A stretch of 64,000 nt of DNA from a bacterium (GTDB lineage Bacteria > Bacteroidota > Bacteroidia > Cytophagales > Cyclobacteriaceae), in the NCBI GenBank assembly GCA_024743255.1, contig JANSWY010000011.1:1-64000 (forward strand), read 5' to 3'. A program made the position numbers and the translations under genes. This document shows positions 648-18,823 of the stretch, piece by piece (position 1 is the first letter of the stretch; every line of letters starts with the position of its first letter). The notes under the pieces are model-generated. The model made no database searches. It was not told the DNA's origin and saw nothing but the letters and a program-made list of their open reading frames with translations.

Positions 648-3600
648 ATGAGTGTTCAAGACGAAAAATATTCCCAGACTGCAAATAAGAACCCATTCCC
701 AGGATTACGGCCTTACGCTGAGGAAGAAGCATCTTTTTTCTATGGCAGAGAAACCGAAAAGCATCAACTTCTCAGACGTCTCACAAAAGATAGGTTAGTT
801 GCTGTTGTGGGAGATGTTGGAGTTGGGAAAACCTCGTTTGTCAATTGTCAGATTATCCCAGCTCTTAGAAATGGGTTTATCGCAAATGGAAGCAGTCATT
901 GGGATATCGTTCAGTTCAGACCTGGACAAAAGCCTATTGAAGCGCTAGCATTAGCATTTTTCAGATTAGTCGTACAATTTGAAGGAACATCAAGGATCCA
1001 ACCGGATTTAAATTTAGAGTTTGAAGAAACTCTGAGACATACTAAGTATGGTATTATTGATCTGGTAGAAAAAATCGCGGAGCTAGCTGGAAACACAAAT
1101 AATGGAAATGGCTCAAATAAAACCAATACGCTAATATATATTGACCACCTTGAGGACATTATGAGTCAAGGTGCTAATTCACTTGAAGTAAAAACTTTCA
1201 TAGTAAGACTTCAGGAATTGATTCAGCAAAATGCTTATCCAATATCTGTAATTGCTACACTCAGAACTGATTCTTTGAGAAGTTTTTCAAAGCATCATGA
1301 GTTATTGGAAAACCTTAATCGTAATCAGTTCCCTCTGGAAGAATTAGGGAGACCAGATTTAATGGCTTTACTTTCACACAATGTGAATAACGGCTATATC
1401 AAGATAACAACTGATTTCCTGAATCACATAAATCAATATTACAGAGAGAACCCAATTAACCTTTCGGAATTCCAGTATTTCATGAAAACCTGTGTGTATC
1501 AATATCAGCTTACAGGAGATGAAATGCAACCAATGGACATCCCTAACATTGATGATGTGGGAGGTTTGGATACTGCAATGGCTTCTCAGCTGGATAAACT
1601 GTATGATAAAATCGGATCGAAAAAGCAGCGTTTTGCCACATTAATCTTTCAGGCAATTACTCAACAAGCAAAATCCGGTGAAATCAGTCTGATACCGAGA
1701 AGCGTTATTGAGATTTCTGAGATTACTAATATCGAATACCAGGATATTATTGAGATTGCTCAATTATTTAGCTCAAATAACTACGGAGTTCTCAATGTTT
1801 ACAATGAGCAAGATATTGAAGGAAGACTAGGTTATCTGGATCAACTAATTGATCCCATTTCGATGGAAATCAACAAAATCCTGGAGCAAATATCTGGTTT
1901 CTTACAAGATGCTGATACCAATCTGGAGCAACAGCGAATTCTGCGAGAAATGCATCAAATCTTTGATAGGTTACAGACCATCGCAGTAGAAAATCCAGAT
2001 ATTCTTGATTCCAGAGAGATCCAGTTAGATGCGGAACAGATATTGGACCAACTAAATACCAATATTGCAGAGCTGGAAGCTGAAAAAGATCCTTCAAAAA
2101 GGCATTTAATCTCCGATATGGAGAGAGTGAGCTTATTACTTGACCAAACTAAGAACCGTATCTGGAATTTTAGCATCATAACTGTCGCTTCTGAAGTGGC
2201 GGTCCAGGAATGGCCGAAACTCTCTGAATGGATGTGGCAGGAGCAGCAGAATGCTTCTCTGTATTCTGATTTGGCTAAAGATGTTGAAAAGGAGGAGCCA
2301 TATTATGAAGGGCGTAAATTTGAAACAACCAGAGACTGGTATCAAAAATTACAGCCTCATGAAGGTTGGGCCAGAAGGTATGGCTTCAATTTCAAAGCTG
2401 TAGACGAGTTCTATAGAGAAAGTGAGCTAAAGTATCAGGGAATTCTTGAAGATAAAGACACTGATGAAAAGTCAAGACTTCAGAAATCAAGAAGAAGCAG
2501 GAATGCCAGAATCTTTATGGTTGCGATGGCACTTATCTTTATTGGAATCCTTGCTTACACCTCTAAAGTAACAAACGAACAAGTGGAAAGTGCTCGTGAA
2601 GCCAGAGATAGTTTGAGTCAGAAGGAAAAAGAAATCGCGGAGCTTCAAAGGAATGCAGATACTGTAAAACACTACGCTGATATTCTAATTGCAAATGCAA
2701 ATAGAGCAAATAATGCGGCGGATAGCACAAGAGAACTATCGGAACAATATGCCGCATCAGCAGAAGCTAATAGAGAACTTGCCAGAAATGCCAGCAGTAC
2801 ACTGGAGTCAATTAAGAAGCAGCAAAAAGACATCACAAGTCAGCTTTCCAGTGCTAAAAAATTGCTCTCAAGTACAGTTTCGCTCAAAGAGTATCTATCA
2901 CTATTAGAATCAATCCGGCAGCAATCTGAATTGGCCAGAAAGCAACTGGAAAATAATGACGACCCCTTGGCGGTAAGACCTTCTTTAAATACTGTTTATG
3001 AGCAGTACGTATTGATAACAGATGGAATGGAGCAGTTTGAGGGCCAACCTTTTTTGGATAGTACAGATATTCAGGATGTATTTAACATCACCAGAAATCA
3101 CCTGTTTGCCACTATGAATACCGCAGTACACAAGTTTGAAGAACAAACGGCTTTAAACAGCATATCCAAACCCTATATGATTGGCTCTGTGAAGGGCAAG
3201 TCTCCAAATAGTTCAACGGTACTGGTTGCATCAACCGACGGTGAGTTTGTCCCACTTCTGCAGGTATTGGAGGTTAGTGATGACAGAATAGAAAAGACTG
3301 ATGAGCTAAAATTACCTCGAGATGCATCCCTTGGATTTATCTCAATTGGTAGCTCCCGCAAGTTTACAAATGCTATGCTTGGCCTAAGACCAATCAATAA
3401 GGACCGAAGAGGTCTTGCATATTTAAATGCCAGCAGGGAGTTGAAGACTATCAAACATCCTGTACCTCCCGTGGAGATGTACGCACTTAGTGAAAATGAG
3501 TATTTAAGCATAGATCAGAATTCAAATGTATTCCTACTTCAGACTGATGGTTCAAAGGTGGACTCCACAAAAATCTACAACGGAGGGAAAAACAACTACC

Positions 3601-4190
3601 TGGCTTCTGACTATGCTGAGGTTGGATCAGAAAAGCTTTTATTTCTTGGGTTCTCAGATGAAGCCGGGGCAAACACAAGTATTATTAAGCTTACTTTCAG
3701 AGGAGAAAATAAGATGGCTCGAGAAGATTTTGCAAGATATGCCAAACACAAAGTTATTTCTGCCATCACATTTGTTGACAACAAGAACTGGTTGGTTGTT
3801 GGCAATCGACAAGGGGAGCTGTTCTTTCATGCAGCAACCACAAGCCTTCCCCTGATTTACGAAGCACTTTCAGATCACAATACCAAAGGTGTCAATTGCA
3901 TTACCTCTAATCCGATTCAATCAATAGTTCTATCTGGTGGTAGGGATGGAATTGTTAATGTCTGGAATATCGAAGATTTGGAAGAAGCTCTTGAACAGCA
4001 AAAAACATATGTTCCTCTCAACTTTGATGAATCGGCACCTATCAGGGACATGTTGTTCGTGGATGACAATACATTTTTAGTGGCAGCAACTGATGAAGGG
4101 CTGGATCAGAGAAATGGACTTATTACTGTCCTGCGTCTCAACTTTGATGAACTGGGTGGAGCCCTAAAAAAACTGAATGAATCTTTCTGA
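648..4190 (+). CDS. STAND-family NTPase (nSTAND1-like) with transmembrane helix, coiled coil and C-terminal WD40-like propeller
   Basis: 1180 residues. The N-terminus has the hallmark NPFPGLRPY...FFYGRE entry of nSTAND1 NTPases, then a Walker A GDVGVGKTS at about residues 55-63 and a Walker B-like LIYIDHLED near 163-171. A single transmembrane helix lies at about 622-642, preceded by a basic KSRRSRNAR stretch that predicts the NTPase on the cytoplasmic side. Heptad-rich coiled coil follows (about 645-760). The last 330 residues look like a beta-propeller, with one clear WD40 repeat near 1080-1112 (SGGRDGIVNVWNIEDL). STAND proteins are oligomerising molecular switches. Here one is embedded in a contractile-injection operon, 1 nt after the baseplate-like gene, so a role in controlling assembly, docking or firing of the particle at the membrane is plausible but inferred. 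Confidence 0.8.
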   Translation: MSVQDEKYSQTANKNPFPGLRPYAEEEASFFYGRETEKHQLLRRLTKDRLVAVVGDVGVGKTSFVNCQIIPALRNGFIANGSSHWDIVQFRPGQKPIEALALAFFRLVVQFEGTSRIQPDLNLEFEETLRHTKYGIIDLVEKIAELAGNTNNGNGSNKTNTLIYIDHLEDIMSQGANSLEVKTFIVRLQELIQQNAYPISVIATLRTDSLRSFSKHHELLENLNRNQFPLEELGRPDLMALLSHNVNNGYIKITTDFLNHINQYYRENPINLSEFQYFMKTCVYQYQLTGDEMQPMDIPNIDDVGGLDTAMASQLDKLYDKIGSKKQRFATLIFQAITQQAKSGEISLIPRSVIEISEITNIEYQDIIEIAQLFSSNNYGVLNVYNEQDIEGRLGYLDQLIDPISMEINKILEQISGFLQDADTNLEQQRILREMHQIFDRLQTIAVENPDILDSREIQLDAEQILDQLNTNIAELEAEKDPSKRHLISDMERVSLLLDQTKNRIWNFSIITVASEVAVQEWPKLSEWMWQEQQNASLYSDLAKDVEKEEPYYEGRKFETTRDWYQKLQPHEGWARRYGFNFKAVDEFYRESELKYQGILEDKDTDEKSRLQKSRRSRNARIFMVAMALIFIGILAYTSKVTNEQVESAREARDSLSQKEKEIAELQRNADTVKHYADILIANANRANNAADSTRELSEQYAASAEANRELARNASSTLESIKKQQKDITSQLSSAKKLLSSTVSLKEYLSLLESIRQQSELARKQLENNDDPLAVRPSLNTVYEQYVLITDGMEQFEGQPFLDSTDIQDVFNITRNHLFATMNTAVHKFEEQTALNSISKPYMIGSVKGKSPNSSTVLVASTDGEFVPLLQVLEVSDDRIEKTDELKLPRDASLGFISIGSSRKFTNAMLGLRPINKDRRGLAYLNASRELKTIKHPVPPVEMYALSENEYLSIDQNSNVFLLQTDGSKVDSTKIYNGGKNNYLASDYAEVGSEKLLFLGFSDEAGANTSIIKLTFRGENKMAREDFARYAKHKVISAITFVDNKNWLVVGNRQGELFFHAATTSLPLIYEALSDHNTKGVNCITSNPIQSIVLSGGRDGIVNVWNIEDLEEALEQQKTYVPLNFDESAPIRDMLFVDDNTFLVAATDEGLDQRNGLITVLRLNFDELGGALKKLNESF

Positions 4191-4205
4191 TAAATATTGG
4201 AAGAA

Positions 4206-6698
4206 ATGAGAATGACTAATTACATAGCATCTATAATTAAAATTGGCTTAGTCTGCGTCTTCATTACTCAGGCAAATACGATCACTGCTCAGGAAGAAAC
4301 TAATGCTCTTGACGAAATTCAGCGACTCTACGATGATGATAAGTTTGAGGAAGCGTACAATTATCTTTCTTTTCAGGTTGAACCTCTGTTTTCCAAAGAA
4401 TCAATTGATAATAAATTAGAAATTCTTAAGTGGGGCATTAAACTAAGTTTTCTGTTGGAACGATTTAATGATCTTGACAACTACTTAAATAGATACATGT
4501 CCTTTGAACCGGACATACCTCTAACAGAATTCAGCAACCCTCAGCTTAAAACCTATATTTCTAAACTACTTGATTCCCAAAGTAAAAGCCTTGTTTACGT
4601 TTATAAACACCCGCAAAACATTGATTTGGCTCCTGCTACAATTACCATTTACAGAAAAAATGATATCGAAAGATTAGGTGCCAGAAATCTAATAGACCTA
4701 ATGCGTATTACTCCAGGTTTCGCAGAATTGGGTGACAACAATGAGCGTGTCATTGGAACCCGAGGAAGCAGCAATACAACCTTACAAGACATTTTATTTC
4801 TGATCAATGGTCACAGAATAACAGATCTTCTAACCAGCACCAATGCTCCAGATTGGATCAGTCTGGATTATGTAGAACAAGTAGAACTGGTGAAAGGACC
4901 TGGTTCGGCTCTTTATGGTGGAAGTGCATTTAATGGTGTTGTCAACATTGTAACCAAAGACGGTAGAAAGAACTATCAGGAGATATCTGTTGATGTAGGA
5001 AATGGTGGTGATATCAATGATATAAATCACTACAATTACAAAGTCAATTATCAATTTGCCAAAAAAATCAAGAGCTCTGAAAATCTGTACCTATCTGCAA
5101 CACTACTTCAATCTGCAGGAAGTATTATAGATTATGCCCAGAGTGAAGAACAACTGGTGCTAGATGATGTAAGCGGAGATTCTGTATTAAGAAGTGCGGA
5201 CCTGGATGGAACTGAATTCATCAACCGATATGCACCAAGCTATGATATCCTATTAAACTATCAAAGAAGAAACTTACAAGTTACTGCAAATCTACAATCC
5301 AGTACATTCATTTATTCGAGACCGTCCTCTCTTAACTTGTGGCAATCTTTAGAAGCTGACACTTTAAGAAACTTAAGAAGAAGAACCGATAGACGTCAAT
5401 TTGTACAGCTGGAATGGTCTCTGCCTCTTAATTTGAGATTGAAACTAAGTGGAGATCATTTTCATAAAGACTTTTATACAAATGCCTATTCATTTGGAGT
5501 AGAAGACAATTCAAGACTTATTGGTGACGAACGTAGAGGAACTTTTAACCTGGAGTACTTCCATAAAAAAGACAAGAGCAATGGAGCCAGTAATAACCTA
5601 TTAGTTGGAGTAGAAACTTATTTCAACAATTGGAGATACAACTATTTTCAGGAAGATAGCTTGTCTCTGAAACTATCCCAGAATATTGACCAGTTTAGTG
5701 ATATTGATGAGGATAGAATGGAAGTAGTTGGAGCTGCTTATATGCAGGCTGAGAATCATCTTGTTCCAAACATGTTAGTAGCAACATTTGGAGTCCGACT
5801 CAACTATCACAACGTTTATTCCAGATTCGACAATATTGTTTTTGGTAAGACCTACTCACCAAGAGCTGGTTTAGTGTTTTTGCCAAGAGCCAACAAGAAT
5901 GGGCTTAGAAAATACAAATTAAAGGTACTATACAATTCAGCATTTTTACCTCCTCCATTCCTATATAGAAGAGGTGGAATCACAGGTTTCGTAGGAGCAG
6001 ATAATCTTATCCCCCAAAGTATTGAAAGTGGAGAAGTCACGCTATTTGGAGACTTGAATAAAAATCTATCCTACAATGTTCTTGTATATGCCAATAAAAT
6101 AGATAATCTAATCTCGCGACAAAGCGATACCTACATTAACGAAGAAACAGAAAAGAGAGTCACCGGTTCCGAATTTGAAATTGCCTTCAAGGACACGGTG
6201 AACACTACGAGTATCTCTATGTTTATGAACTTCGCTATGACCAAACTGAATAACTTCAAGGATTCGGTAAGGCATAATTACTTCGCACTATTTAGCCCGG
6301 ACCTTTATGATGAAGAAGATAACCTTGAAAGGTTTCCAAGAACACATCTAAATGCTGGAATAACAGTTGGTTTTGACTTTGACCGAAACATTAAAGTGAC
6401 CGCTGGCCTTACTGGTCAATTGATAGGGAAGTCTACAATCTCTTCAACTTATTTTGTGAACGTCAGTGGGGTGTTGGAAGAGTCAACAGAATCTGTATCT
6501 CAGGATTTGCCATCAGCTTTTGTATTAAATGCACTAGTGAATCTACATTGGGATAAGTACAGACTCGGAATATCCATGTTCAATGCGACAGATAAAGAAT
6601 ATTATTTACCATCTGCTGTTTCCAGAATTCAAAGACAAAGAGCAGAAGGAAGAATGGTCTATCTAAACTTTAGAATTAGGCTAGCGGCTGACGACTAA
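4206..6698 (+). CDS. TonB-dependent-receptor-like outer membrane protein
   Basis: I place the start at ATG 4206 (or ATG 4212) rather than the upstream TTG 4197, because a signal peptide ending ...NTITAQ then follows. After it come about 100 helical residues that may be TPR-like, not the usual carboxypeptidase-regulatory-like domain and with no clear TonB box. A well-conserved plug domain starts near residue 140 (TITIYRKNDIERLGARNLIDLMR; VKGPGSALYGGSAFNGVVNIVT), followed by a 22-stranded-type barrel with repeated aromatic beta-strands to the end. It lies 15 nt after the STAND gene and 3 nt before the SulP gene, so it is translated as part of the injection-system operon. Uptake of a substrate is the family role; in this setting it may instead be a surface docking or anchoring part. 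Substrate unknown. Confidence 0.8.
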   Translation: MRMTNYIASIIKIGLVCVFITQANTITAQEETNALDEIQRLYDDDKFEEAYNYLSFQVEPLFSKESIDNKLEILKWGIKLSFLLERFNDLDNYLNRYMSFEPDIPLTEFSNPQLKTYISKLLDSQSKSLVYVYKHPQNIDLAPATITIYRKNDIERLGARNLIDLMRITPGFAELGDNNERVIGTRGSSNTTLQDILFLINGHRITDLLTSTNAPDWISLDYVEQVELVKGPGSALYGGSAFNGVVNIVTKDGRKNYQEISVDVGNGGDINDINHYNYKVNYQFAKKIKSSENLYLSATLLQSAGSIIDYAQSEEQLVLDDVSGDSVLRSADLDGTEFINRYAPSYDILLNYQRRNLQVTANLQSSTFIYSRPSSLNLWQSLEADTLRNLRRRTDRRQFVQLEWSLPLNLRLKLSGDHFHKDFYTNAYSFGVEDNSRLIGDERRGTFNLEYFHKKDKSNGASNNLLVGVETYFNNWRYNYFQEDSLSLKLSQNIDQFSDIDEDRMEVVGAAYMQAENHLVPNMLVATFGVRLNYHNVYSRFDNIVFGKTYSPRAGLVFLPRANKNGLRKYKLKVLYNSAFLPPPFLYRRGGITGFVGADNLIPQSIESGEVTLFGDLNKNLSYNVLVYANKIDNLISRQSDTYINEETEKRVTGSEFEIAFKDTVNTTSISMFMNFAMTKLNNFKDSVRHNYFALFSPDLYDEEDNLERFPRTHLNAGITVGFDFDRNIKVTAGLTGQLIGKSTISSTYFVNVSGVLEESTESVSQDLPSAFVLNALVNLHWDKYRLGISMFNATDKEYYLPSAVSRIQRQRAEGRMVYLNFRIRLAADD

Positions 6699-6701
6699 AC
6701 T

Positions 6702-8636
6702 ATGAGTATTACAAGCAACATTAAAGGGGATATAACAGGAGGAATTTCTGCAGGTATTGTAACATTACCCGTGGCACTTGCTTATGGAGTTGCCACCGGA
6801 ATGGGACCTGCAGCTGGTATGTACACCGCAGTAATTCTTGGACTTCTTGCGGCGATTTTTGGTGGTACCAATACACAAATCAGCTGTCCAACTGGTGCTA
6901 TGACTGTTGTTGTTGCATTTATTGTAGGACAAGAGGTGAGCCTTGCTGGCTCCTTAGAGAAAGCTCTTCCTATTCTAATTATCATATTTCTGCTCACAGG
7001 TATTTTTCAAATTCTTATTGGTGTTTTCCGGTTCGGCCTAAACATAAGATATGTCCCTTACAGTGTAGTTAGTGGATTCATGAGCGGAATTGGAATCATC
7101 ATCATTTTGCTTCAGGTAAAAGACGTAACAGGTGTTTACAATGATGAAATCAGATCTATTCCTTCGATTCTGATGAATATGGGGCATTTCATAATGAATG
7201 TTCATTGGGAGACCCTGGTACTCTCATCAGCTACCCTCGTCATCATTTACACTACTCCAAAAATCAGTAAGAAAATCCCTGGTGGCTTAGCTGCTCTGAT
7301 AATCGTATCTGCAGTCTCTTATTTCGCTGGATTTGATGTTAAAAGACTTGGTGATATCAGTTTTGATTTGAGCCATTTGTCTATGTCACTATCATTTGAA
7401 GGACTTAACTCAGAAGCTATTGCAAGAATCGCACTGGCATCTTTTTCGTTGGCACTTTTAGGTTCAATCAACACACTGTTGACCTCTGTAGTAGCCGACA
7501 AAATGACCAAGACAATGCACAATAGTAACAGGGAACTGATTGGTCAGGGAGTAGGTAATCTTATTGCCGGACTGTTTGGCGGTTTTCCGGGAAGTGGGGC
7601 TACTGCTTGTACGGTTGCAAATATTCAGGCTGGTGGTCAGACTAAATTGTCTGGAGTAATTAGTTCGGTATTCTTGCTTGTGGTGCTCCTATTTGGGATG
7701 GATCTTGCAGGGCAGATTCCATATAGCGTTTTAGGTGGAATATTGGTTTATATCGGAGTGGTTCTCATTGATACAGAAACACTCAAAAAAATCAACAAAA
7801 TCCCGAAAGCAGACAATTTTGTGATGCTGACGGTTTTGACCTTAACCGTGCTTTGGAACTTGCTTTATGCAGTTTTATTAGGATTAATATTTGCCGCTTT
7901 TTACTTCATGAAAAAGATGGCAGATGTGGTAGAAGTTGATACAGAAAAAACCAAGGTAGATAGTATTGTAGATCAGGTAATCAAGAGTTTTCAGGATGAT
8001 AAAGGTTTTGGTAGCAAGGTTTTAATTAAAACTATTAAAGGACCAGTTTTCTTCGGATTCTCGAGTAGGTTTCTAGTGTCTATGAGAAATATCCCTAACA
8101 ATATTCAAGCTGTTGTATTTGACCTGTCATTGGTTCCTTATATGGATCATTCCGGCCTGAGAACATTTATGGAAGTGATCCAATTTTTGTCGGAGAAGAA
8201 AGTCAACATTTGTTTTAGTTCAGTTGGCAGATTAAATCTTCAACTACTTCAGGATTTTGAAATAGTTCCAAAACTAGTTGATGAGCGCCACATCTTTGAA
8301 TCAGTGGAAGAGTGCATCATGTGGTTGAAAGAACCGGGGCATTTGGAGAACAGTTTTGCCAAGGATGATGAATTATATGTTCCTCCAGCATTTACTCCAA
8401 ATGGTGATGGTATAAACGATGATTGGGAAATTAAGAACATTGACAAATATCCAAATGCCGAAATTAAGATCTTTAATCCTGAGGATAGAATAGTTTATGA
8501 ATCGGTTGGTTACAAAGAACCTTGGGGTGGAATGATTAATAACGAATTACTTCCTCCAGGAGAATACAGGTATCACATTAAGCTGATGAATGAAACAGCA
8601 GAAGTGAGAGAAGGCTCAGTATTCCTATTTAGATAA
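6702..8636 (+). CDS. SulP-family anion permease with STAS domain and a C-terminal gliding-associated (CHU_C / T9SS type B-like) domain
   Basis: 644 residues. Residues 1-400 are a multi-pass SulP transporter (GGISAGIVTLPVALAYGVATG; GGFPGSGATACTVANIQAGG). Residues about 430-545 form a cytoplasmic STAS domain with the typical YMDHSGLRTF loop. From about 563 to the end there is a domain beginning PPAFTPNGDGINDDW and ending PPGEYRYHIKL...GSVFLFR, which matches the gliding motility-associated C-terminal domain normally found on T9SS-secreted proteins. SulP proteins move sulfate, bicarbonate or other anions across the inner membrane. The fusion is odd: there is no signal peptide, and the extra domain would sit in the cytoplasm. 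It is the fourth gene of the injection-system operon, 8 nt before the tape-measure gene. The frame is continuous, so it is not an artefact of two genes. Confidence 0.85.
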   Translation: MSITSNIKGDITGGISAGIVTLPVALAYGVATGMGPAAGMYTAVILGLLAAIFGGTNTQISCPTGAMTVVVAFIVGQEVSLAGSLEKALPILIIIFLLTGIFQILIGVFRFGLNIRYVPYSVVSGFMSGIGIIIILLQVKDVTGVYNDEIRSIPSILMNMGHFIMNVHWETLVLSSATLVIIYTTPKISKKIPGGLAALIIVSAVSYFAGFDVKRLGDISFDLSHLSMSLSFEGLNSEAIARIALASFSLALLGSINTLLTSVVADKMTKTMHNSNRELIGQGVGNLIAGLFGGFPGSGATACTVANIQAGGQTKLSGVISSVFLLVVLLFGMDLAGQIPYSVLGGILVYIGVVLIDTETLKKINKIPKADNFVMLTVLTLTVLWNLLYAVLLGLIFAAFYFMKKMADVVEVDTEKTKVDSIVDQVIKSFQDDKGFGSKVLIKTIKGPVFFGFSSRFLVSMRNIPNNIQAVVFDLSLVPYMDHSGLRTFMEVIQFLSEKKVNICFSSVGRLNLQLLQDFEIVPKLVDERHIFESVEECIMWLKEPGHLENSFAKDDELYVPPAFTPNGDGINDDWEIKNIDKYPNAEIKIFNPEDRIVYESVGYKEPWGGMINNELLPPGEYRYHIKLMNETAEVREGSVFLFR

Positions 8637-8644
8637 ATGCTACT

Positions 8645-11600
8645 ATGGCTGGACCGGAAAATAAGCATGAGATTAATCAAATTAGATTAGAGCTCGACGG
8701 TCAGCTTAGTAACGAAACTTTGCAGTCGCTCAAGGATGAGATTCTTGCAGCTATTGAGTCTTGTTTTGATGAATTTTCCGGCCCGGAGGATCATGTTTTC
8801 ATAGATAAAATTGAGCTTGATCTAGGTGAAATAAAGTCGGAACACTTGCTGGAAGAGTTTAAAGTAAGAATAATTTACTTACTCCGACAAGAATTTGAAA
8901 AGTCGCTAACTCAAATGCGAGAGAAACAAAAACTCTCTCCTCCAAGAAGAAAAGAAAAGCGACTTATTGAAAACTTCCTTGATTATCTAGTCTTGGGTTA
9001 TTCCAAAGCGAAGGAGTCTGGTTTGTCAAGTCTTTTCGAGCAAATCTCGAAGGAGAATGTTGACAAAATATCCGAGATCTTTGATTCTGCATACCTTACA
9101 TCCAGCTCCAAAGAAAGAATTCTGAACCAAATCAGATTTGGACAATTAGATACATATTGGACAGGTGTTATCCCTGGGCCATACAAAGAGATTAGAAAAA
9201 TAAACCTTGTCATTCTTGAAGCCTATCAGGAAGTTCTTTCAATGGATTATGATCTTGGAGGTGCTCAAGGAGTTATTAAGAAAATAACACTCCAGTTTTT
9301 ATTAGGGAAACCAAAGAGTCAGATTACCCCGGAACTATACTTGGAGGAAATCAAGAGAAATATCTCTCTGCTAAAACCTCATAGTAAAAAACTGAAAAAA
9401 CCTCTTGAGGTAGTACTTCAGGAATTTGAAACATCCCAGGCACCCACTAAAATAGAATTCAAGGAGTCTCAAAACCAAATATCTAAATGGGAACAATTTG
9501 CAAAACAACGATATCCGGATAAATTTAAAGTATTAGATCAAATCAATATCAGAACTGCTCATGAAATCTCCAAGCAGTTTTCTGAAGAAGCTAATATTAC
9601 AAAAATTAGAGAGATATTAACTCAGCTTGCATTAGAAGCAATTATCTCAGACTATATCTCTACAGAAAAGGATTACATAAAATTCCTCGTTCAGGAAATA
9701 GAGCGAATAAGGCCTTTGGTTAAAAATGTACGAATTGAGAAACTGAAAAGTCTAATTACTCAACACAAATCTGGAGAGTCTCAGAATTTAGAAGCCAAAA
9801 TAAGTTTTAATAATATCAAGGAGTACCTATTAATAGGCAGATCAGATTCCCACAGCTGGCAAGAAATCTCCAAGTCCATAAAACAATCCATTACTCAGGG
9901 TGAAATAAAGACAATTGATCAGATCATACAGATCAATGCCTCCTCTAAAGAGATATCAACTCAGCTGAATCGACTTCTGCTGTTAACATACTCAGTAAAA
10001 GAAATCTTAGAGGTTATTCGCAATTCTTTGGATAAGGACCTGGGTGATCATAAATCAAGTTTTTTATTGCTGCTTGAAATCAATGAAAGTATCGTTAGAG
10101 TTTTCAATCTCGCCACAGCTCAGGATATTTTAACGTCACAAAAGCTCATCAAAAACCTCTTTGAGGGAAAAATTAGTTCAGCCCTTAGATTTCTATCACA
10201 ACTCGTTGAGGCTAAAAAGAGGATTCCAATAAATGAGTTTTTACAATCAATCACAACTGATCTCAAAAAAAGGAAAACTGATAGGACTACAAAGAAACTA
10301 ATCTCGGAAGCAGAAAAATTAGTGGCTACTGAGGTCAAAGAAGACACAGAATCGGAAGTATTCAGAACTGGAACAATTCTATCTCAATACATGTATTTTC
10401 TCAAGACTGGAATCTGGAAAAACCGAGAAGTACCTCCGCAAAAAGCTCTAGAGATGATATTGGAAGATTCAATTCAGCCATTTATCAATCAGCTCAGAAA
10501 TATCCTTTCCGATAGAATCTCCTGGACCAGGTTAATCTTCCAGAACCCAATAGAAATTGTTTTTCAAATTTTTGAGGTCGTATTTGAAGATGACGAAAAG
10601 TTTGAAGAGTTAGCAGTCACTTACAGATCACATCAAAAAGATCCTGAATTAAATCAATCGATCAGTCGGCTATTCGAATTATTCATAGAATATAAAATTG
10701 CCTCACTCACCGAGGATATCTCATTCGAAAACCTGCTTCAGGATATTCAATCAGAACAGCCTCCTGCTGCGTTAGAGGTAATTGCAGATGAACAAATAAC
10801 CAATGTTATTGCAGATTTAGAGTCTGCTTTTCTTGAGCCCACAGAGGAAGCTGATAAAGAATTAGAAAAGCTAATTAAGGATTTGCCTGAAACTGATATC
10901 AGAGAAATCTTTAACTCACTTATCTCTACGAGATCCTGGTATCTGATAGATACTTTCAATCAGCATGTTTTTAGCTCACCTGACGTGCAAAAGGCTGTAA
11001 ATATTGAAAGTCTATCGATGATTGTAAAGTTGATGGTCCAGGGAAGATCTATCCTGCTAAACGAATACTTATCGGACATTTGGATGGAAATGCAAACTGA
11101 TCCAATCCCGGTAGCGTCGAGGATAGTACAAAACAAACCATTTTTAGCTAATGCTGGTGAAAAGGACACATTTGATTTCCTTCCTACAGAAATTACTGAC
11201 TTTATAAATGAAATATCAAAGCTCACAGAAATAACTACTGAGGAATTCAAACAAATAAGACGCAAAATCATACAATCATATCCTGTATACTCACAGGTTA
11301 GGGATTTAAAATGGCACCTGATTGAAGAGTTTCAAAAAGACAAAAAACTTAAAGAATCGTCAGTTCAAACGATAATAGATTATCTGATTGAAAAAGATGA
11401 AACTCTGGCTTTAAAAACACTTAGAAATGTAATATTTGAAAAGACCAAGGTAACACAGGGTAAATGGCCACTTACAGATAAAGTGGAACAACTAATTTTG
11501 CAAGCAATCGAAACTACAGCTTTCGATTGGGTCCTATTTGAGGGAGCTGATGAGGTAATCATTGATAAGTTTCTAAATCAAATCTCTGAAAAGGTCAGAT

Positions 11601-14600
11601 CCAAGCTGGAGGAATTATTAAGAATAGAAAAGGCCGAAATTCCAATAGAAGTAGAAATCCCTGTCTCAAAGCAGTTGCAACTCAACCTACCTCACATCAG
11701 CCAGTTATTAAAACCCATTGGAGAAGATTCAGAGTTCTATGAAGACATTACGAAGTATCTGAAGGAGGCAATTGAAAAATCGGACAATACTTTCGATCTG
11801 AAGATCTATGTCATTCAGAAATTACATGAAAGCACCTCCTACTCTACCACAATCATTCAGGCACTTGCTAATAATTGGTTCAAACAGGAATCTTCTCATT
11901 CAATTCTGAGGCATTACATAAAAGTACTCCTTAATGAAGGTGAGAAAGAATATTTACGATATCTCTTTAGCAGTAAAGTCTTGTTCCAAAAGGAATTGAT
12001 CTCTTCGATGGAAAGCAGCCAATTTGATTGGACTGTCTTTCGTGGAATTCAGATTTCAAAAATTATTAGTTTTCTAGATTCCTATTCTGAAGAACTTAAA
12101 GAAGAGATTTTCAATCAACTTGGGTTGGCTCCTGCACTAAAGAATGATGAACTCGCTCAAAAATTATCTTCAAGAGCGATCACAATAACAAGAGTTCCTG
12201 AAAATAAAGAAGCTGAACTAAAAGACTTTGAACAACTGCTCAGAGCTTCAATCATTTCTGGACTAATTAAGTATCAACCTGTATTTGAAGATGAATCCCA
12301 TTTTCAAGAATACTTCAAAAACGTCATCAATACGGATTACTCAGTGATTAGTGTTTTTGAAGGTGCTCCAATTTCAGAAACAAAAAAATTACTCAGCATA
12401 CTGGATAAAGATCTAAAGAATAAAATCCAATCAATTGTCACCAGTAAAATTCCGGCTTCCTTTCAGACATTTTCTCAGTCTTTGATCAGAGAAAACAGAG
12501 GAGATTCTAAGAAACTAGAAGAGCTCACTCTCGCATTTGTGCTTACGAGAAAGTCTTACGAGTATCAAGAGTATATTAATGTTCTCGAGCGTGAAATAAG
12601 TGAGCTTACGATTCCTGTAGAATATTTGTTGGAGGAGGATGACTCAGCTCCTGTCCGAAAAAGGTTAACCTTCTCAGATATTAAAATTCTGATAGACTAT
12701 TTAAAGTATGAAGAACTAAAAACAGATGAATTTACATCTGTACAATTGTTGCTTAAAGTAATTTCTGAAAGTCCAATTCCATTCTTAGCGGAACTCAGAA
12801 AGCAAGTAAACTTAAGTGGGATTATTTCCAGAATAATTGAAATCACCCCAAAATCAAAACTTGAATGGTTAGCTAATTCTCTAGTTCCTGAACTTCCAAA
12901 AATTGAACTTACCGCACCTAACAAATCAGAGGTTTACTCTGAAAGATCAATCGCGCAGTTAATCACTCAGAAAATTAGGTTTGGAGAGATTCAGGAATTG
13001 GAATTCATCCTTAAAGCTGATGAAGAAATGGAGATTACGCCAATAGAAGTGCTAGCATCCAAGGATTCAGATCTTTCTTCAATTGAAATCGGAATCCGAG
13101 AACAATTCATTCTTGAATTTGATTCTTTTCAACTTTTAGAAGAACTAATAGCAACTGGAAAAATTCCATATTGGTCAAATTTGAAATCAATTCAAGAGAT
13201 CGAATTTTTAGTTGACACGATTTTTGATTGGCACCCTGAGAAAGCAAAAAAACTGATCAGTACTCAGATGAGTTCCCAACAGCATATCCGGAATTTCTTC
13301 AGTTTAGTTGGATCAGAGATCTACATTATGGTCTTTAAATATCTGGATAAGAAGGTTCATGATTATTACATAGAATCGATAGAGGCAGAATTAGCTGAGT
13401 TGGAGGACAGGATAACTTATCAACTTTCTACTGAAGCAATGAAAGAACTGATTGATTCCTATTATTCCAGGAAGCACATTTTAGAAAATGACATCAGGCA
13501 AATAATCAGCTCAAAAATTAAGGAATCAAACCTTTCAATTACAGTACGGGGTAGTAAAGATGAGCCTATTGAAGATCAAACACTAGCTAAGGAAAGAATC
13601 CCTTCAGTCGTTCCAGAACCTGAAGAAATTGAAACTGCTGAAACTATAGCCTTTCTATTGGAAGAAGAAAAAGTGCCATGGTGGTCCGAAATTGAATTCA
13701 GTGGTGATCAATGGCCAGTCTTAATTTCGAATCAATTAAAGACAATAGATTCTCAGGAACTACCAACCATACTTCTCTATATTCAAGAGACATATGGAAC
13801 CGCTCCTATTTCAAAACTTGCCCAAATATTAACTCAACAAGATTTCGATGAGATTCTTAATGTAATCCAACCCAATTTTTTCGGGTTCATTGAAAGTCTC
13901 AGACTAATTCTTGAAAAAATCGATTTAGAGATAACTCAAAAGATTTGGCAAGACTTTGTACTGGGAACAGTCATCTCTAAGAACATATTTCAACCTCAAG
14001 GTTTTGTTAAAAGCACAATCAGGTTTATTAGTGAGATAACTAAAAAACCAATAAAGGAAGTAAAAGCTGTAATCTCATCACAAATTGACAAAACGGATGA
14101 GGCCAGATACTTAGCTATTAAACAATTACTTCAACAGCCAGAAACAGAAGAGCTAGAGAGTCCTGGCTTTACGCAATTGGAAACTGCGCTTCAGCCATTC
14201 CATAAATTGCTTGACCTTTACATGAAGTACGGAGTTCTTAAGTACACAAAACAGTTTCCGATTAGAAGCAGTCACCAATTGGCCTTAGCTATAAAAAACT
14301 TTGGAGAAAAGTCAGAAGTTACTCAGGTAGTTACCCAAAATATTTCCAATAGTCAGATTAGAACAAGAATTATCAAATCAGAATCTGCAATAATTATCTG
14401 GAGTTATATTCAGATTTTATTCCCTTCTCAATTCAAAGAATTAACAATTTACAATACCAGCTTAAAACAGCTATTTGCTCTGAATTCAACCTCCTTCTCA
14501 ACCACAAAATTTGATAGAACCTTTTTTGAATTCATACTTGAGAACAAAGAAGAAACAAACATCCAGACATTAATTAAATCCGCAATCAAGATACTGCAGA

Positions 14601-15271
14601 CTGCTTTTAACATCAGCACAGATTCGTTGGACCCTATTCAAATTGAAAAAATAGGTCTGGATCCTAGATTATTTGATTTGTCAGTAAAATCGAAATCAGA
14701 AGAAAAGCCTCAAGAGCAATCAGCAGTGTCAGAACAACTATCATACAACCCAAATGAAAGTTTAAAAGACCATTTATTGATCAATACAGCTGGTATTGTT
14801 ATATTCTCTCCATATCTGACCAGGTACTTTGACTTATTGGAAATGACTAAAAATGGTCAATTTAAAGATGTAGAAACTGCCTTAAGAGCTGTTCATCTTT
14901 TGAACTTTATAGCGACAGGCAAGTCTGCTGCGCCGGAACATGAGCTGATGTTAAATAAAGTTTTATGTGGTGTTCCAATATTACACCCATTACCAATGGA
15001 AATTGATATTTCAGATAAGGAACGTGAAATTACTGAGGGGATGATAAAAGGTGCAGTTTTGCAAAACTGGGACAGGATGAAAAATTCCTCCATAGAAGCA
15101 TTGAGAGAAGGCTTTTTGATCAGAGATGGGTACTTATCGGAGAAAGATAAATCGTGGGAATTGAAAGTGGAGAAAAAAACACTCGATATTCTTATGGAAA
15201 GCATACCATGGTCATTTAGCACAGTAAAATTACCTTGGATGGAAAAACTAATGAACGTAGAATGGCAATAG
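8645..15271 (+). CDS. Contractile injection system tape-measure protein (very long)
   Basis: 2208 residues. The N-terminus (NQIRLELDGQLSNETLQSLK; VFIDKIELDLGEI) and C-terminus (INTAGIVIFSPYLTRYFDLL; AVHLLNFIATG; PEHELMLNKVLCGVPI) are the two diagnostic ends of the CIS tape-measure family (CIS_TMP). The C-terminal block is essentially the family signature. Between them lie many helical repeats carrying a short 'xxTGxxPxW' core, for example near residues 575, 1505 and 1680. In the family the protein sets the length of the inner tube and guides assembly in extracellular injection systems and Bacteroidota relatives. The 3' end overlaps the AAA+ gene by 10 nt, so the two are translationally coupled. 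The length is well above that of short-tailed injection particles, which suggests a long tube if length scales as in phages (inference). Confidence 0.88.
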   Translation: MAGPENKHEINQIRLELDGQLSNETLQSLKDEILAAIESCFDEFSGPEDHVFIDKIELDLGEIKSEHLLEEFKVRIIYLLRQEFEKSLTQMREKQKLSPPRRKEKRLIENFLDYLVLGYSKAKESGLSSLFEQISKENVDKISEIFDSAYLTSSSKERILNQIRFGQLDTYWTGVIPGPYKEIRKINLVILEAYQEVLSMDYDLGGAQGVIKKITLQFLLGKPKSQITPELYLEEIKRNISLLKPHSKKLKKPLEVVLQEFETSQAPTKIEFKESQNQISKWEQFAKQRYPDKFKVLDQINIRTAHEISKQFSEEANITKIREILTQLALEAIISDYISTEKDYIKFLVQEIERIRPLVKNVRIEKLKSLITQHKSGESQNLEAKISFNNIKEYLLIGRSDSHSWQEISKSIKQSITQGEIKTIDQIIQINASSKEISTQLNRLLLLTYSVKEILEVIRNSLDKDLGDHKSSFLLLLEINESIVRVFNLATAQDILTSQKLIKNLFEGKISSALRFLSQLVEAKKRIPINEFLQSITTDLKKRKTDRTTKKLISEAEKLVATEVKEDTESEVFRTGTILSQYMYFLKTGIWKNREVPPQKALEMILEDSIQPFINQLRNILSDRISWTRLIFQNPIEIVFQIFEVVFEDDEKFEELAVTYRSHQKDPELNQSISRLFELFIEYKIASLTEDISFENLLQDIQSEQPPAALEVIADEQITNVIADLESAFLEPTEEADKELEKLIKDLPETDIREIFNSLISTRSWYLIDTFNQHVFSSPDVQKAVNIESLSMIVKLMVQGRSILLNEYLSDIWMEMQTDPIPVASRIVQNKPFLANAGEKDTFDFLPTEITDFINEISKLTEITTEEFKQIRRKIIQSYPVYSQVRDLKWHLIEEFQKDKKLKESSVQTIIDYLIEKDETLALKTLRNVIFEKTKVTQGKWPLTDKVEQLILQAIETTAFDWVLFEGADEVIIDKFLNQISEKVRSKLEELLRIEKAEIPIEVEIPVSKQLQLNLPHISQLLKPIGEDSEFYEDITKYLKEAIEKSDNTFDLKIYVIQKLHESTSYSTTIIQALANNWFKQESSHSILRHYIKVLLNEGEKEYLRYLFSSKVLFQKELISSMESSQFDWTVFRGIQISKIISFLDSYSEELKEEIFNQLGLAPALKNDELAQKLSSRAITITRVPENKEAELKDFEQLLRASIISGLIKYQPVFEDESHFQEYFKNVINTDYSVISVFEGAPISETKKLLSILDKDLKNKIQSIVTSKIPASFQTFSQSLIRENRGDSKKLEELTLAFVLTRKSYEYQEYINVLEREISELTIPVEYLLEEDDSAPVRKRLTFSDIKILIDYLKYEELKTDEFTSVQLLLKVISESPIPFLAELRKQVNLSGIISRIIEITPKSKLEWLANSLVPELPKIELTAPNKSEVYSERSIAQLITQKIRFGEIQELEFILKADEEMEITPIEVLASKDSDLSSIEIGIREQFILEFDSFQLLEELIATGKIPYWSNLKSIQEIEFLVDTIFDWHPEKAKKLISTQMSSQQHIRNFFSLVGSEIYIMVFKYLDKKVHDYYIESIEAELAELEDRITYQLSTEAMKELIDSYYSRKHILENDIRQIISSKIKESNLSITVRGSKDEPIEDQTLAKERIPSVVPEPEEIETAETIAFLLEEEKVPWWSEIEFSGDQWPVLISNQLKTIDSQELPTILLYIQETYGTAPISKLAQILTQQDFDEILNVIQPNFFGFIESLRLILEKIDLEITQKIWQDFVLGTVISKNIFQPQGFVKSTIRFISEITKKPIKEVKAVISSQIDKTDEARYLAIKQLLQQPETEELESPGFTQLETALQPFHKLLDLYMKYGVLKYTKQFPIRSSHQLALAIKNFGEKSEVTQVVTQNISNSQIRTRIIKSESAIIIWSYIQILFPSQFKELTIYNTSLKQLFALNSTSFSTTKFDRTFFEFILENKEETNIQTLIKSAIKILQTAFNISTDSLDPIQIEKIGLDPRLFDLSVKSKSEEKPQEQSAVSEQLSYNPNESLKDHLLINTAGIVIFSPYLTRYFDLLEMTKNGQFKDVETALRAVHLLNFIATGKSAAPEHELMLNKVLCGVPILHPLPMEIDISDKEREITEGMIKGAVLQNWDRMKNSSIEALREGFLIRDGYLSEKDKSWELKVEKKTLDILMESIPWSFSTVKLPWMEKLMNVEWQ

Positions 15272-16596
15272 CATTTAACAACAGCATCGATTCACTTACC
15301 AAGGAATTGGAGTGGCTTAATAACATGATTTCCTATAGGTTTCATGAGTATTTCAAGCAATCTGAGGAAGCCATTTACCCTGAAGCACCTGATCTTTCTG
15401 GGGATGACTCATTCTATGCAAATACCATCAAGGAACTTCAATTGGAAGACATGCACCGGCTGTTAATCTTAATCGCATTAGCACCACATGTGAAGCCCGC
15501 AATATTTGATATTTTCTTTACCAAGAATTCATTATTTGATCGGGTCTATGCAGAATTTGGTGGGTTAAAAGGAGAAAAACACAGCGGATTTGTTCCGACT
15601 GGTGAAACAGCAGCCTTCATTATCGCTGGTAATAATCTTGATATCCGGTTTAAACTTCAAAAGTGCTTCGAAGATCATCATATATTGAGCACTGCCAATA
15701 TTGTTTCACTTGGCTTTACCAATTCCTATGAATCCATGTGGAGTGGTGAATTAATCATCAGCAAGGAGTTTCTCACAAACGTGACCTTGAATGAAGCATA
15801 CACTCCAAGGTTCTCCTCAAGTTTCCCAGCAAGTCAGCTAGATACCAAGCTTGACTGGGAGGATGTAGTTTTTGATCCATCGGTTCGTCAGGAAATTGAA
15901 CACATACAATCCTGGATCAACCATGAATCCACGATTATGAAGGATTGGAAGATGGGCAAATATCTGAAGAAAGGATACCGTGCACTCTTCTACGGACCTC
16001 CAGGTACCGGCAAATCAATGACAGCAGCATTACTGGGAAAGTCAAATGAGCTTAATGTCTATCGTGTCGACCTGAGTGCCGTAGTTTCCAAATATATCGG
16101 AGAAACAGAAAAAAACCTGGCCAATCTCTTTAATCTGGCTGAAAACAAAAACTGGATACTGTTCTTCGATGAAGCGGATGCCTTGTTTAGCAAAAGGCTT
16201 TCAACAAGCAGCAGCAATGACATGTTTGCCAATCAACAAGTAGCTTATTTACTACAAAGAATTGAAGACTTTAATGGTGTAGCAATTTTGGCGTCCAACT
16301 TCAAAGACAACATTGATGAAGCATTTTTAAGAAGGTTTCAAAGTGTTGTTTATTTCCCAAAACCAAATCAATCCCTAAGACTTCAACTTTGGAATAAATA
16401 TTTTGATCAATTTGATATGAGCGAAGTTGACCTGGATAAAATTGCTACCGAGTATGAAATTACTGGTGGTAGCATCATCAATATTCTCAGATACTGTTCC
16501 ATTTCTGCTGCAAAAAGATCGTCTAATACAATTCTTGAAAAAGACCTGATTAAGGCTGTTAGAAAAGAGTTCATGAAGGAAGGTGTTACCTTGTAA
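15262..16596 (+). CDS. CIS-associated AAA+ ATPase (Afp15-like)
   Basis: I use ATG 15262, which overlaps the tape-measure stop by 10 nt; an upstream TTG at 15235 is less likely. 444 residues: a poorly conserved N-terminal helical domain (about 1-200), then a classical AAA+ core with Walker A GPPGTGKS (about 246-253), Walker B ILFFDEAD (about 298-305), sensor 1 (VAILASN) and an arginine-finger segment (DEAFLRRFQ). This architecture matches the single AAA+ ATPase found next to the tape-measure gene in extracellular contractile injection systems, where it is needed for particle assembly. It is the last gene of the operon; no effector or toxin gene directly follows. Confidence 0.87.
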   Translation: MAIAFNNSIDSLTKELEWLNNMISYRFHEYFKQSEEAIYPEAPDLSGDDSFYANTIKELQLEDMHRLLILIALAPHVKPAIFDIFFTKNSLFDRVYAEFGGLKGEKHSGFVPTGETAAFIIAGNNLDIRFKLQKCFEDHHILSTANIVSLGFTNSYESMWSGELIISKEFLTNVTLNEAYTPRFSSSFPASQLDTKLDWEDVVFDPSVRQEIEHIQSWINHESTIMKDWKMGKYLKKGYRALFYGPPGTGKSMTAALLGKSNELNVYRVDLSAVVSKYIGETEKNLANLFNLAENKNWILFFDEADALFSKRLSTSSSNDMFANQQVAYLLQRIEDFNGVAILASNFKDNIDEAFLRRFQSVVYFPKPNQSLRLQLWNKYFDQFDMSEVDLDKIATEYEITGGSIINILRYCSISAAKRSSNTILEKDLIKAVRKEFMKEGVTL

Positions 16597-17089: not shown

Positions 17090-17166
17090 TTTAGGGTCCA
17101 TTCAAATCATCTTTAAAATTCACTGGATCCAATAATAAGTTATCGGCAATCAAAAATTAATTGATC

Positions 17167-18021
17167 ATGAACTTCAAGAATTTATTCTTTGTAGTGGTGA
17201 TATTAAGCGTAATCACTTCTGCAACAAGGGCACAAAGTGCCAAAAATTATAATGAATTATCTAAAGCGCTTCAAGAACAATCAAGTGTAGAGTGGCTCAC
17301 GCTCAGTAACCAAAATCTAAAAGAATTCCCCAAGGAGATACTTCAATTTCAAAACCTCAAGTATCTGGACTTAAGTAACAACAACATCAGTTCATTACCA
17401 GAGGATATAAGTAAACTAAATAATCTGTTTTACCTGGATCTTTCTGGCAATAGAATATCCAAACTTCCACTTCAGTTTTCAGAAGTGAAGAATTTGCAAC
17501 ACCTATATCTGGGCTATAATCAATCATTAAACCTGGAATATGATATTGAAATTCTTAGTGAACTACCACTTCTGAAAGTACTTGACCTTAGTGGTGATGG
17601 ACTAGATCAGCTTCCTTCTACTATTTCCAAGCTTGGGAGTCTGGAGTTTCTAGAGTTATCTGAGAATAGAATAAAGGTATTGCCTGATTCATTTACAGAT
17701 CTGAAGAATCTCAAAGTACTTTATATCGATAATGATCAGGAATTTGACCTGGATCAAAATATTTCAATTCTTGCAAGCCTCCCAAATCTAAGAGAACTCC
17801 ATCTGGAAGGAGACAGATTTACCAACTTGCCCTCTAAAATCGGCAACCTAAAATCTCTGGAATACCTATATCTCAGCAACAACAGACTAGATGAATTGCC
17901 TGAAGAGGTATTTGAAATGAATAAGATCAAAGAAATCGATGTGTCCAATAACCGAATGCCTCACATTCTTCTGGACATGTATCGTGACAACCTGGCCCCA
18001 ACAGTAAAAATTACTTTCTAA
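17167..18021 (+). CDS. Secreted leucine-rich-repeat protein
   Basis: The start is ATG 17167, giving a signal peptide (MNFKNLFFVVVILSVITSAT, cleavage after RAQ); the upstream TTG at 17161 adds nothing. About 284 residues with roughly eight bacterial-type leucine-rich repeats of the form LxxLxLSxNxIxxLPxx, covering residues about 45-270. No catalytic domain and no T9SS sorting domain, so it is probably a periplasmic or outer-surface binding protein. It lies 19 nt before the prohibitin-like lipoprotein gene, so the two are likely cotranscribed. Confidence 0.82.
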   Translation: MNFKNLFFVVVILSVITSATRAQSAKNYNELSKALQEQSSVEWLTLSNQNLKEFPKEILQFQNLKYLDLSNNNISSLPEDISKLNNLFYLDLSGNRISKLPLQFSEVKNLQHLYLGYNQSLNLEYDIEILSELPLLKVLDLSGDGLDQLPSTISKLGSLEFLELSENRIKVLPDSFTDLKNLKVLYIDNDQEFDLDQNISILASLPNLRELHLEGDRFTNLPSKIGNLKSLEYLYLSNNRLDELPEEVFEMNKIKEIDVSNNRMPHILLDMYRDNLAPTVKITF

Positions 18022-18040: not shown

Positions 18041-18823
18041 ATGAAAACGATAAAACTAATTTTTGCCATTTTAATTATTCCTGGGTTAATGAGCTGTTCG
18101 GTAGTTCGACAAGGTGAAATTGGAGTGAAACGAAAAGTCGGAAAACTCGATCAGGAAATTATTACTCCGGGAGCGGTTGGTTACAACCCGTTTGAATCCA
18201 GAATTATTAAGATGCCTGTGAGAACAATGAATATGGAAATCACTACAAATCTTCCATCTAAAGAAGGTCTTAATGTGAGAGCTGTAATCTCAATTCTCTA
18301 CAGGATAGTCCCAGAAAAAGCACCGATGATAATTGAGCAAATTGGTATTGGAAATGAGCAAGGGGTGATAAGCAGTGTCTTTAGGTCATCTGCAGCGGAT
18401 GTATGCTCCAGATTCTTTGCAAAAGATATGCACTCTGCACAGCGAGCAAATATTGAGAAAGAAATCACTGATCGTATGTCAGAACTACTTGCGCACAGAG
18501 GGTTTGAAGTAGAAGCAGTACTGATGAAAAACATTTCACTTCCAGCTGGACTGGCAAGAGCAGTTGAAGAAAAACTGGAGGCCGAGCAAATGGCTCAAAG
18601 AATGGAGTTCCTATTGGATCGAGAGCAACTGGAAGCTCAGAGAAAGATTATTGAAGCGGAAGGAATCAGAGATGCTCAAAAAATCATTAGTGAAGGACTA
18701 AACCAGAATATCATTCAGTGGCAAAGCATTGAGGCCTTCAAAGCATTAAGTAACTCTCCAAATACTAAGGTAATCCTAACAGATGGGCAATCCCCAATGT
18801 TATTAGACCCAAGCGGTGAATAA
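18041..18823 (+). CDS. Prohibitin / SPFH (Band 7) family lipoprotein
   Basis: 260 residues. The N-terminus is a lipoprotein signal with the lipobox GLMSC (Cys19). Residues about 22-200 form an SPFH/Band 7 domain (QGEIGVKRKVGKL; VRAVISILYRIVPE; ISLPAGLARAVEEKLEAEQMAQRM), followed by a helical C-terminal segment (EAQRKIIEAEGIRDAQKI) typical of prohibitins, which self-assemble into ring-like membrane scaffolds. A lipid anchor in place of the usual N-terminal transmembrane helix is seen in Bacteroidota members. Role inferred as membrane organisation or protease control. It follows the LRR gene by 19 nt and is closed by a strong terminator. Confidence 0.85.
   Translation: MKTIKLIFAILIIPGLMSCSVVRQGEIGVKRKVGKLDQEIITPGAVGYNPFESRIIKMPVRTMNMEITTNLPSKEGLNVRAVISILYRIVPEKAPMIIEQIGIGNEQGVISSVFRSSAADVCSRFFAKDMHSAQRANIEKEITDRMSELLAHRGFEVEAVLMKNISLPAGLARAVEEKLEAEQMAQRMEFLLDREQLEAQRKIIEAEGIRDAQKIISEGLNQNIIQWQSIEAFKALSNSPNTKVILTDGQSPMLLDPSGE

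Follow-up and report, generated by a model that had tools for sequence, protein, structure and literature searches.

A rare fusion protein joins an inner-membrane transporter of the SulP (SLC26) family and its STAS domain to a CHU_C domain, the family of T9SS type B C-terminal domains (CTDs), and half of the genomes in which we found it encode the fusion inside the operon of a contractile injection system (CIS), a machine resembling a phage tail. The window, meaning the whole 64,000-nucleotide stretch of Cyclobacteriaceae DNA that was analysed, encodes the fusion on the forward strand in a single uninterrupted frame (6702-8636, 644 amino acids) with no internal stop (Table 1). The transporter domain scores E=1.7e-78 with Pfam Sulfate_transp (264.5 bits against a cut-off of 23.2), which places the protein among SulP/SLC26 transporters. 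The STAS domain follows C-terminally (E=4e-10, 39.8 bits against 22.6), and the end of the protein matches both CHU_C in Pfam (E=6.2e-19, 68.4 bits against 27) and TIGR04131 in NCBIfam (aa 560-642, E=7e-16, 58.1 bits against 35). Within the terminal domain, FTPNGDGINDDW starts at aa 564 (nt 8391) and GEYRYHIK occupies aa 620-627. A preliminary description of this DNA had claimed that the domain is fused in frame behind the SulP and STAS domains, and the single frame together with profile scores over the cut-off for each of the three models bears this out.

Table 1. Features of the fusion gene and its CIS neighbourhood in the window.
Feature	Position (nt)	Strand	Basis
Conserved CIS gene o1153, 3' end, cut by contig start	2..646	+	phmmer E=1.3e-39 to the L037 (UBA6059) homologue
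nSTAND1 NTPase, one TM span (about aa 620-638), WD40-like propeller	648..4190	+	Pfam, hydropathy
TonB-dependent-receptor-like outer-membrane protein	4197..6698	+	signal-like N-terminus, ~115 aa extension, then Plug domain
SulP-STAS-CHU_C fusion protein, 644 aa	6702..8636	+	Pfam, NCBIfam; full-length homologues
SulP (SLC26) transmembrane domain, aa 8-376	6723..7829	+	Pfam; nearest NCBIfam model BicA; solved relative 6ki1
Asn257 codon, aligned with Asp258 (Na+ ligand) of BicA	7470..7472	+	sequence alignment; BicA roles as described in PMC13249358
STAS domain, aa 440-537	8019..8312	+	Pfam
Conserved linker (W-x-x-EPG), aa 541-558	8322..8375	+	55.2% mean pairwise identity, six fusions
CHU_C / T9SS type B CTD-like beta-sandwich, aa 560-641	8379..8624	+	Pfam, NCBIfam; fold match to PorZ, NucA and RemZ CTDs
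CIS tape-measure protein (PF19268)	8645..15271	+	Pfam
CIS-associated AAA+ ATPase	15235..16596	+	Pfam

The transporter part resembles BicA most closely among the NCBIfam models. A profile of the SulP alignment matched the solved relative 6ki1 at E=1.3e-131, and the BicA equivalog model NF050096 scored E=9.2e-113 on the window protein, at 377.6 bits well below its curated cut-off of 880, so that the protein falls outside the equivalog itself. BicA was also the best structural match of a predicted full-length model, which is of moderate quality (pLDDT 75.9, pTM 0.59, 14 alignment rows).

The fusion is rare. A whole-protein search of 291 genomes of the order recovered full-length SulP-STAS-CHU_C matches in five, including the genome of the window, and a profile of the STAS-CHU_C half matched the same five among 390 genomes. 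A sixth genome, Flammeovirgaceae bacterium UBA6059 (L037), shares 64% identity over the tail and was found among the best 80 of 592 stretches scanned in named genomes; L038 from the same scan is the contig of G016 again and adds no genome. The fusion is known on this basis from at least six genomes, and the five other proteins are 47-65% identical to that of the window (48% for G244, 65% for UBA6059). The families of G016 and G011 were represented by two and one searched genomes, all with the fusion. No second genome with both parts was found in a phylum-wide draw, where, besides the window's own genome, 5 of 395 genomes matched at E<=1e-30, all at profile positions 1-151, which cover the STAS part. 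An assembly or frameshift artefact is ruled out by the same full-length fusion in five other genomes, and the last residue, R644, is kept in all six. The preliminary description had named an assembly join, a frameshift or a lack of homologues as grounds for giving up the fusion, none of which applies; the list of genomes with both domains on one chain that it asked for comprises the six fusions, three of them inside CIS operons. In our literature searches, which covered papers in part, we met neither a SulP-CHU_C fusion nor a SulP/TonB cassette within a CIS locus. A Kordia paper (PMC7477175) was considered as a precedent and rejected, as the CTD term in the parts at hand refers to a large surface protein that carries a signal peptide, and SulP is mentioned in a metabolism table.

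A single origin of the fusion is the simplest reading of the sequences and probably the correct one. In a tree of 15 SulP proteins built without the linker and CHU_C columns, the six fused proteins form one group (100/100), within which the three CIS-located copies (100/100) and the three lone copies (88/91) each group together. The SulP row of L028, on a long branch, was left out of this tree, and its rooting serves for drawing only. The fusion group was recovered at 98/93 in an alternative tree that included both L028 and the CHU_C columns. An inner-membrane anion transporter resembling SulP/BicA would once have gained, C-terminal to STAS, a beta-sandwich like that of type B CTDs, most simply by gene fusion from a T9SS substrate.

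The acquired domain should lie on the cytoplasmic side of the membrane, because both termini of BicA are cytoplasmic (PMC13249358) and no transmembrane span follows STAS in the fusion. Hydropathy and inspection by eye, rather than a dedicated predictor, showed no signal peptide in the window protein, the N-terminus of which runs into the transporter, and no span between the STAS and CHU_C positions given by Pfam. The lack of a signal peptide and a cytoplasmic location had both been proposed before, and both hold by these measures. Other CHU_C proteins begin differently. The same genome has 19 other CHU_C matches (17 over the Pfam cut-off, 14 with the start in view), and a signal-like N-terminus was seen in 13 of the 14, with 11 flagged by script and two recognised by eye; L163, the only one without it, may be missing its real start. 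The best 80 of 592 CHU_C stretches include 78 non-fusion loci, 77 of which gave an open reading frame. A hydrophobic N-terminus is present in 59 of the 62 with the start in view, and of the remaining three L040 also reads as a signal peptide while L069 and L102 seem fragmentary. Of the 77 reading frames, 5 contain three or four TM-like stretches, against nine flagged in the SulP part of the window protein.

Conservation of the added domain argues for a retained function. CHU_C shows a mean pairwise identity of 51.3% across the six fusions, compared with 50.0% for the transmembrane domain, 44.9% for STAS and 55.2% for the linker; since its value is as high as that of the transporter, the domain is not decaying. 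Among the positions conserved in the exported-type rows described next, fifteen core ones are shared by all six fusions (T565, P566, N567, D569, G570, I571, D573, W575, I577, W608, G610, Y622, Y624, G638 and R644). We compared the domain with 51 exported-type CHU_C rows, whose export is assumed from their N-termini and which comprise 48 of the 78 non-fusion loci (from the best 80 of 592) and 3 of the 19 other matches in the same genome. The 48 rows were fetched by patterns including the FTPNGDGI stretch, which biases conservation there. Several positions that are common in the exported-type rows are rare or missing in the fusions. In the NRxG turn, R593 and G595 are each found in 2/6 fusions vs 44/51 and 50/51 rows; N562 is found in 0/6 vs 38/46, Y623 in 0/6 vs 36/51, and D609 in 1/6 vs 42/51. 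The share of strongly conserved positions kept is 0.63-0.84 in the fusions vs 0.66-1.0 in the exported-type rows, which puts the fusions at the low end of the range and hardly outside it. As far as six sequences can tell, this pattern of loss and retention fits a CHU_C fold kept for another purpose. A domain left over passively from a chance fusion would explain the loss of some positions nearly invariant in exported-type copies, but this reading is very unlikely given the transporter-like identity of CHU_C across six genomes and the core positions kept in each of them.

Structure prediction of the C-terminal domain, recommended in the preliminary description, returned a T9SS-CTD fold. The model of the domain alone (pLDDT 85.4) matched the CTDs of PorZ (Z 9.0, 86 aligned, 3.0 A), NucA (Z 8.6, 73 aligned, 2.0 A) and RemZ (Z 8.1, 73 aligned, 2.6 A), with streptococcal proteases in the same Z range. 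The fusions thus share with T9SS type B CTDs (TIGR04131 / PF13585) the family scores, the fold, the C-terminal position and the final Arg in 6/6. They differ in lacking a signal peptide, in sitting on a polytopic transporter at a presumably cytoplasmic location and in keeping the R and G of the NRxG turn in only 2/6 each. Secretion of type B substrates requires five motifs (PMC12618676). The T9SS translocon component SprA is encoded in all six fusion genomes (cut by a contig end in G011), which together with the largely kept CTD positions would suit a C-terminus that is exported and truly sorted by T9SS. Such sorting is nevertheless highly improbable for a protein that has the C-terminal CHU_C/TIGR04131 domain of a type B substrate but no Sec signal peptide, no span between STAS and CHU_C, and the cytoplasmic termini of its BicA relatives. 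On the cytoplasmic side the domain would be beyond the reach of T9SS and may serve as a protein-binding module.

Three of the six fusions are encoded within CIS operons. The order nSTAND1, TonB-type protein, SulP-CHU_C and tape measure is kept in the window, G244 and UBA6059, and the AAA+ ATPase gene follows the tape measure on the same contig in two of the three. The gaps before and after the fusion gene are 3 and 8 nt in the window, 3 and 5 in UBA6059, and 19 and 21 in G244. The most complete run, on one strand of UBA6059, comprises the sheath, three tube proteins, a LysM-type protein, the spike, a small PAAR-like protein (by eye), gp25, a baseplate J-like protein, o248 and o1153, followed by nSTAND1, the TonB type, SulP-CHU_C, tape measure and AAA; apart from tape measure, sheath and AAA, these names are labels based on inspection and on homology to G244. 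In G244 the gene order is identical until the contig ends within the tape measure, and L232 is probably the continuation of this locus across the contig end. The o1153 piece in the window matched no Pfam family. In the window's own genome the only sheath match (L246, C156 end) stops some 70 bases short of the end of another contig, so that its CIS operon probably extends over more than one contig. Two members of the cassette besides the fusion have an envelope character, namely a TM span in the nSTAND1 protein and a signal-like N-terminus with a Plug domain in the TonB type.

CIS of the same order without the envelope cassette are common. We surveyed 60 tape-measure stretches from 56 genomes of the order, and in none was a SulP or TonB-type neighbour detected (phmmer 1e-5). 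These 56 are part of 77 tape-measure-positive genomes, with small endosymbiont-like and some other genomes left out; several stretches are cut by contig ends, one of the 60 is L232, the probable continuation of the G244 locus, and phmmer recognised the tape measure in 59 of the 60 (all except L233). An nSTAND1-like gene without the rest of the cassette occurs in three stretches (L218, L230, L231). The o1153 gene mostly adjoins the tape measure or lies one large gene away, with exceptions in L212 and L216 (opposite strands) and in L230 and L231 (at a distance of two genes, one being nSTAND1-like), and was not seen in many tape-measure stretches outside a CIS cluster. An nSTAND1-like gene near a CIS is therefore not peculiar, while the three-gene envelope set was seen only in three genomes. 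Eight CIS loci (L174, L179, L180, L184, L187, L188, L193 and L203) encode a protein of 1000-1800 aa between o1153 and the tape measure, which is the slot of the cassette. This protein starts like YPVFEANQVLTNxHLN, and the copy in L187 has Big_9 and CarboxypepD_reg domains. Behind the CIS operon of the window, on the same strand, lie genes for an LRR protein with a signal-like N-terminus (17161-18021) and a Band 7/SPFH protein (18041-18823). Further along, 47672-48895 encodes a fusion of an HD domain with a Pycsar effector (PycTM) domain.

The remaining three fusion genes (G011, G016 and G033) have ordinary, mutually different neighbours and are not near CIS genes. G011 and G033 have CIS genes on other contigs, while G016, at 99% completeness, gave no tape-measure (CIS_TMP) match and no sheath by family or by search with the G244 sheath protein. 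Because half of the fusions lie elsewhere and G016 lacks a CIS, the fusion cannot serve solely to hold the base of the injection particle, and a role confined to CIS is ruled out. The preliminary description had read the domain as a possible adaptor re-used inside the cell, perhaps at the base of the injection particle. The T9SS-CTD fold and the three copies in CIS operons agree with this idea, which fails as an account of the other three, G016 among them. The link to CIS may have been gained when the CIS branch took up an existing protein, or lost in the lone branch, and the tree favours neither. The lone fusion of G033 lies divergently beside an ilvD-like gene (by translation; L024 2904-4574), and an ilvD gene is found in the window at 20901-22574, roughly 12 kb downstream of the fusion; this may reflect an ancestral neighbourhood common to both. 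Both the lone fusion of G011 and an unfused SulP of G185 lie beside D-Ala ligase, PASTA, T9SS-tail and rhodanese genes (by eye; L021 14419-18774 and L027 6233-12304), which suggests an old common place of the SulP gene.

The CIS-located copies differ from the other SulP proteins in the transporter core. BicA binds Na+ through Asp258, Thr262, Gly300 and Thr302, and bicarbonate through Thr69, Ala301 and Na+ (PMC13249358). At the place of Asp258, residue 257 of the window protein, all three CIS-located copies have Asn and all 13 other SulPs compared have Asp (three lone fusions and ten unfused proteins, two of the latter being near-copies encoded in a single genome). The CIS-located copies retain the remaining residues cited for BicA. 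In the lone copies, Thr69 is replaced by Ala in two of three and Ala301 by Thr in all three. Among positions that 10 or more of 11 others share, 15 are changed in all three CIS copies vs 5 for the lone copies, a count that carries no weight given the roughly fivefold greater length of the CIS branch (0.74 vs 0.14 changes per column in the 15-SulP tree). The exchange of Asp for Asn is likewise one event, on one long branch where many changes are expected. Judged from these residues, Na+-coupled transport by the Asn257 copies is doubtful; the CIS-located proteins are plausibly impaired in it and may act as sensors or docks.

The fusion might still be an ordinary anion transporter in which CHU_C tunes STAS-mediated dimerisation or transport, with CIS operons having adopted it for ion or pH homeostasis. 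It resembles BicA and other SulP transporters in fold, STAS domain and most substrate-site residues, the STAS domain required by BicA for dimerisation and transport (PMC13249358) is kept throughout the family, the lone copies all have Asp257, and such a role would suit lone genes in three genomes, G016 without any CIS among them. What sets the fusions apart from these transporters is the C-terminal CHU_C and, in the CIS-located copies, Asn for the Na+-ligand Asp. An ordinary transporter would not be expected to hold a tight, conserved place beside two other envelope proteins in the CIS operons of three of the six genomes, or to have lost the Na+ ligand in exactly these three copies. The substrate-site changes of the lone copies mean that an unchanged transport role is not assured there either. 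We regard this explanation as a real possibility, clearly short of an even chance.

A related receptor pair occurs outside CIS. Besides the window's own genome (G000) and G244, only G198 among 291 genomes encodes a protein closely related to the TonB type (E<=1e-60). This genome gave neither a tape-measure (CIS_TMP) nor a sheath match, and directly upstream of its TonB-type gene (L252, 8396-10924) lies a gene for a protein with the layout TIR, TM, WD40 (4601-8356). TIR domains commonly have a role in bacterial immunity. From this single case, the envelope pair looks like a receptor with an exchangeable cytoplasmic output, nSTAND1 or TIR. The cassette could then be a device that senses invaders at the envelope, with SulP-CHU_C as a membrane relay beside the nSTAND1-WD40/TonB pair and with the CIS as its output, fired within the cell to bring about its death. 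The Streptomyces CIS, the firing of which needs CisA, does induce cell death under stress (PMC12237407), and the G198 pair has the same layout. Against this, there is one case outside CIS, similarity between the TIR and nSTAND1 proteins is weak beyond WD40, and no SulP-CHU_C lies beside the G198 pair, and we consider invader sensing quite improbable.

We favour, at somewhat less than an even chance, a transporter-derived membrane protein with CHU_C as a cytoplasmic binding module, the CIS-located copies of which were recruited to an envelope-spanning docking or sensing cassette, similar in role to CisA. This reading rests on the fusion itself, the grouping on one branch, the conservation and predicted fold of the domain, the operon position in three of six genomes and the Asp-to-Asn exchange shared by the three CIS copies. 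Recruitment on one branch would have brought the gene together with the nSTAND1-TM-WD40 protein and the TonB-type outer-membrane receptor into a CIS operon, and the transporter part would have lost its conserved Na+ ligand. The CIS-located protein would then be an inner-membrane dock or sensor that positions or triggers the CIS, with a putative path from receptor to CIS. A precedent is CisA of Streptomyces coelicolor, a membrane protein encoded in a CIS cluster and proposed to bring the cytoplasmic CIS to the membrane for firing (PMC12237407). CisA shares the membrane location and the CIS-cluster gene with the CIS-located fusions, but as described there its architecture is unrelated: it is bitopic, its cytosolic part is largely unstructured, and it is no transporter bearing a beta-sandwich. 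DauA of E. coli, also a bacterial SulP protein, acts in signalling by binding membrane partners, though the consulted parts of its description mention neither CHU_C nor CIS (PMC5703999). Several points count against docking, namely the three lone fusions, one of them in G016 without a CIS, the many CIS without the cassette, and an Asn that represents one event on a long branch. In addition, AlgoCIS of Algoriphagus, likewise a Bacteroidota CIS, is of the extracellular type with particles never seen anchored to a membrane, and the text of its paper mentions no transporter or TonB protein (PMC8894135). A bolder version is unlikely, and holds that a T9SS export-signal domain was domesticated as an intracellular dock. 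A transport-dead SulP-CHU_C, the TonB-type receptor and the nSTAND1-TM-propeller protein would form an envelope-spanning receptor that holds and triggers the CIS, with an output exchangeable for TIR.

The CHU_C/TIGR04131 domain is used to call proteins exported. The fusion indicates that the domain can persist on the presumably cytoplasmic end of an inner-membrane protein, so that relying on this domain by itself for annotation can lead astray. Should the CIS-located copies be docks, they would reveal a way in which some Bacteroidota link a cytoplasmic CIS to their envelope, open to study through three defined genes. This would add a further coupling between CIS and membrane to the T6SS envelope complex, the baseplate extension of tCIS, and CisA.
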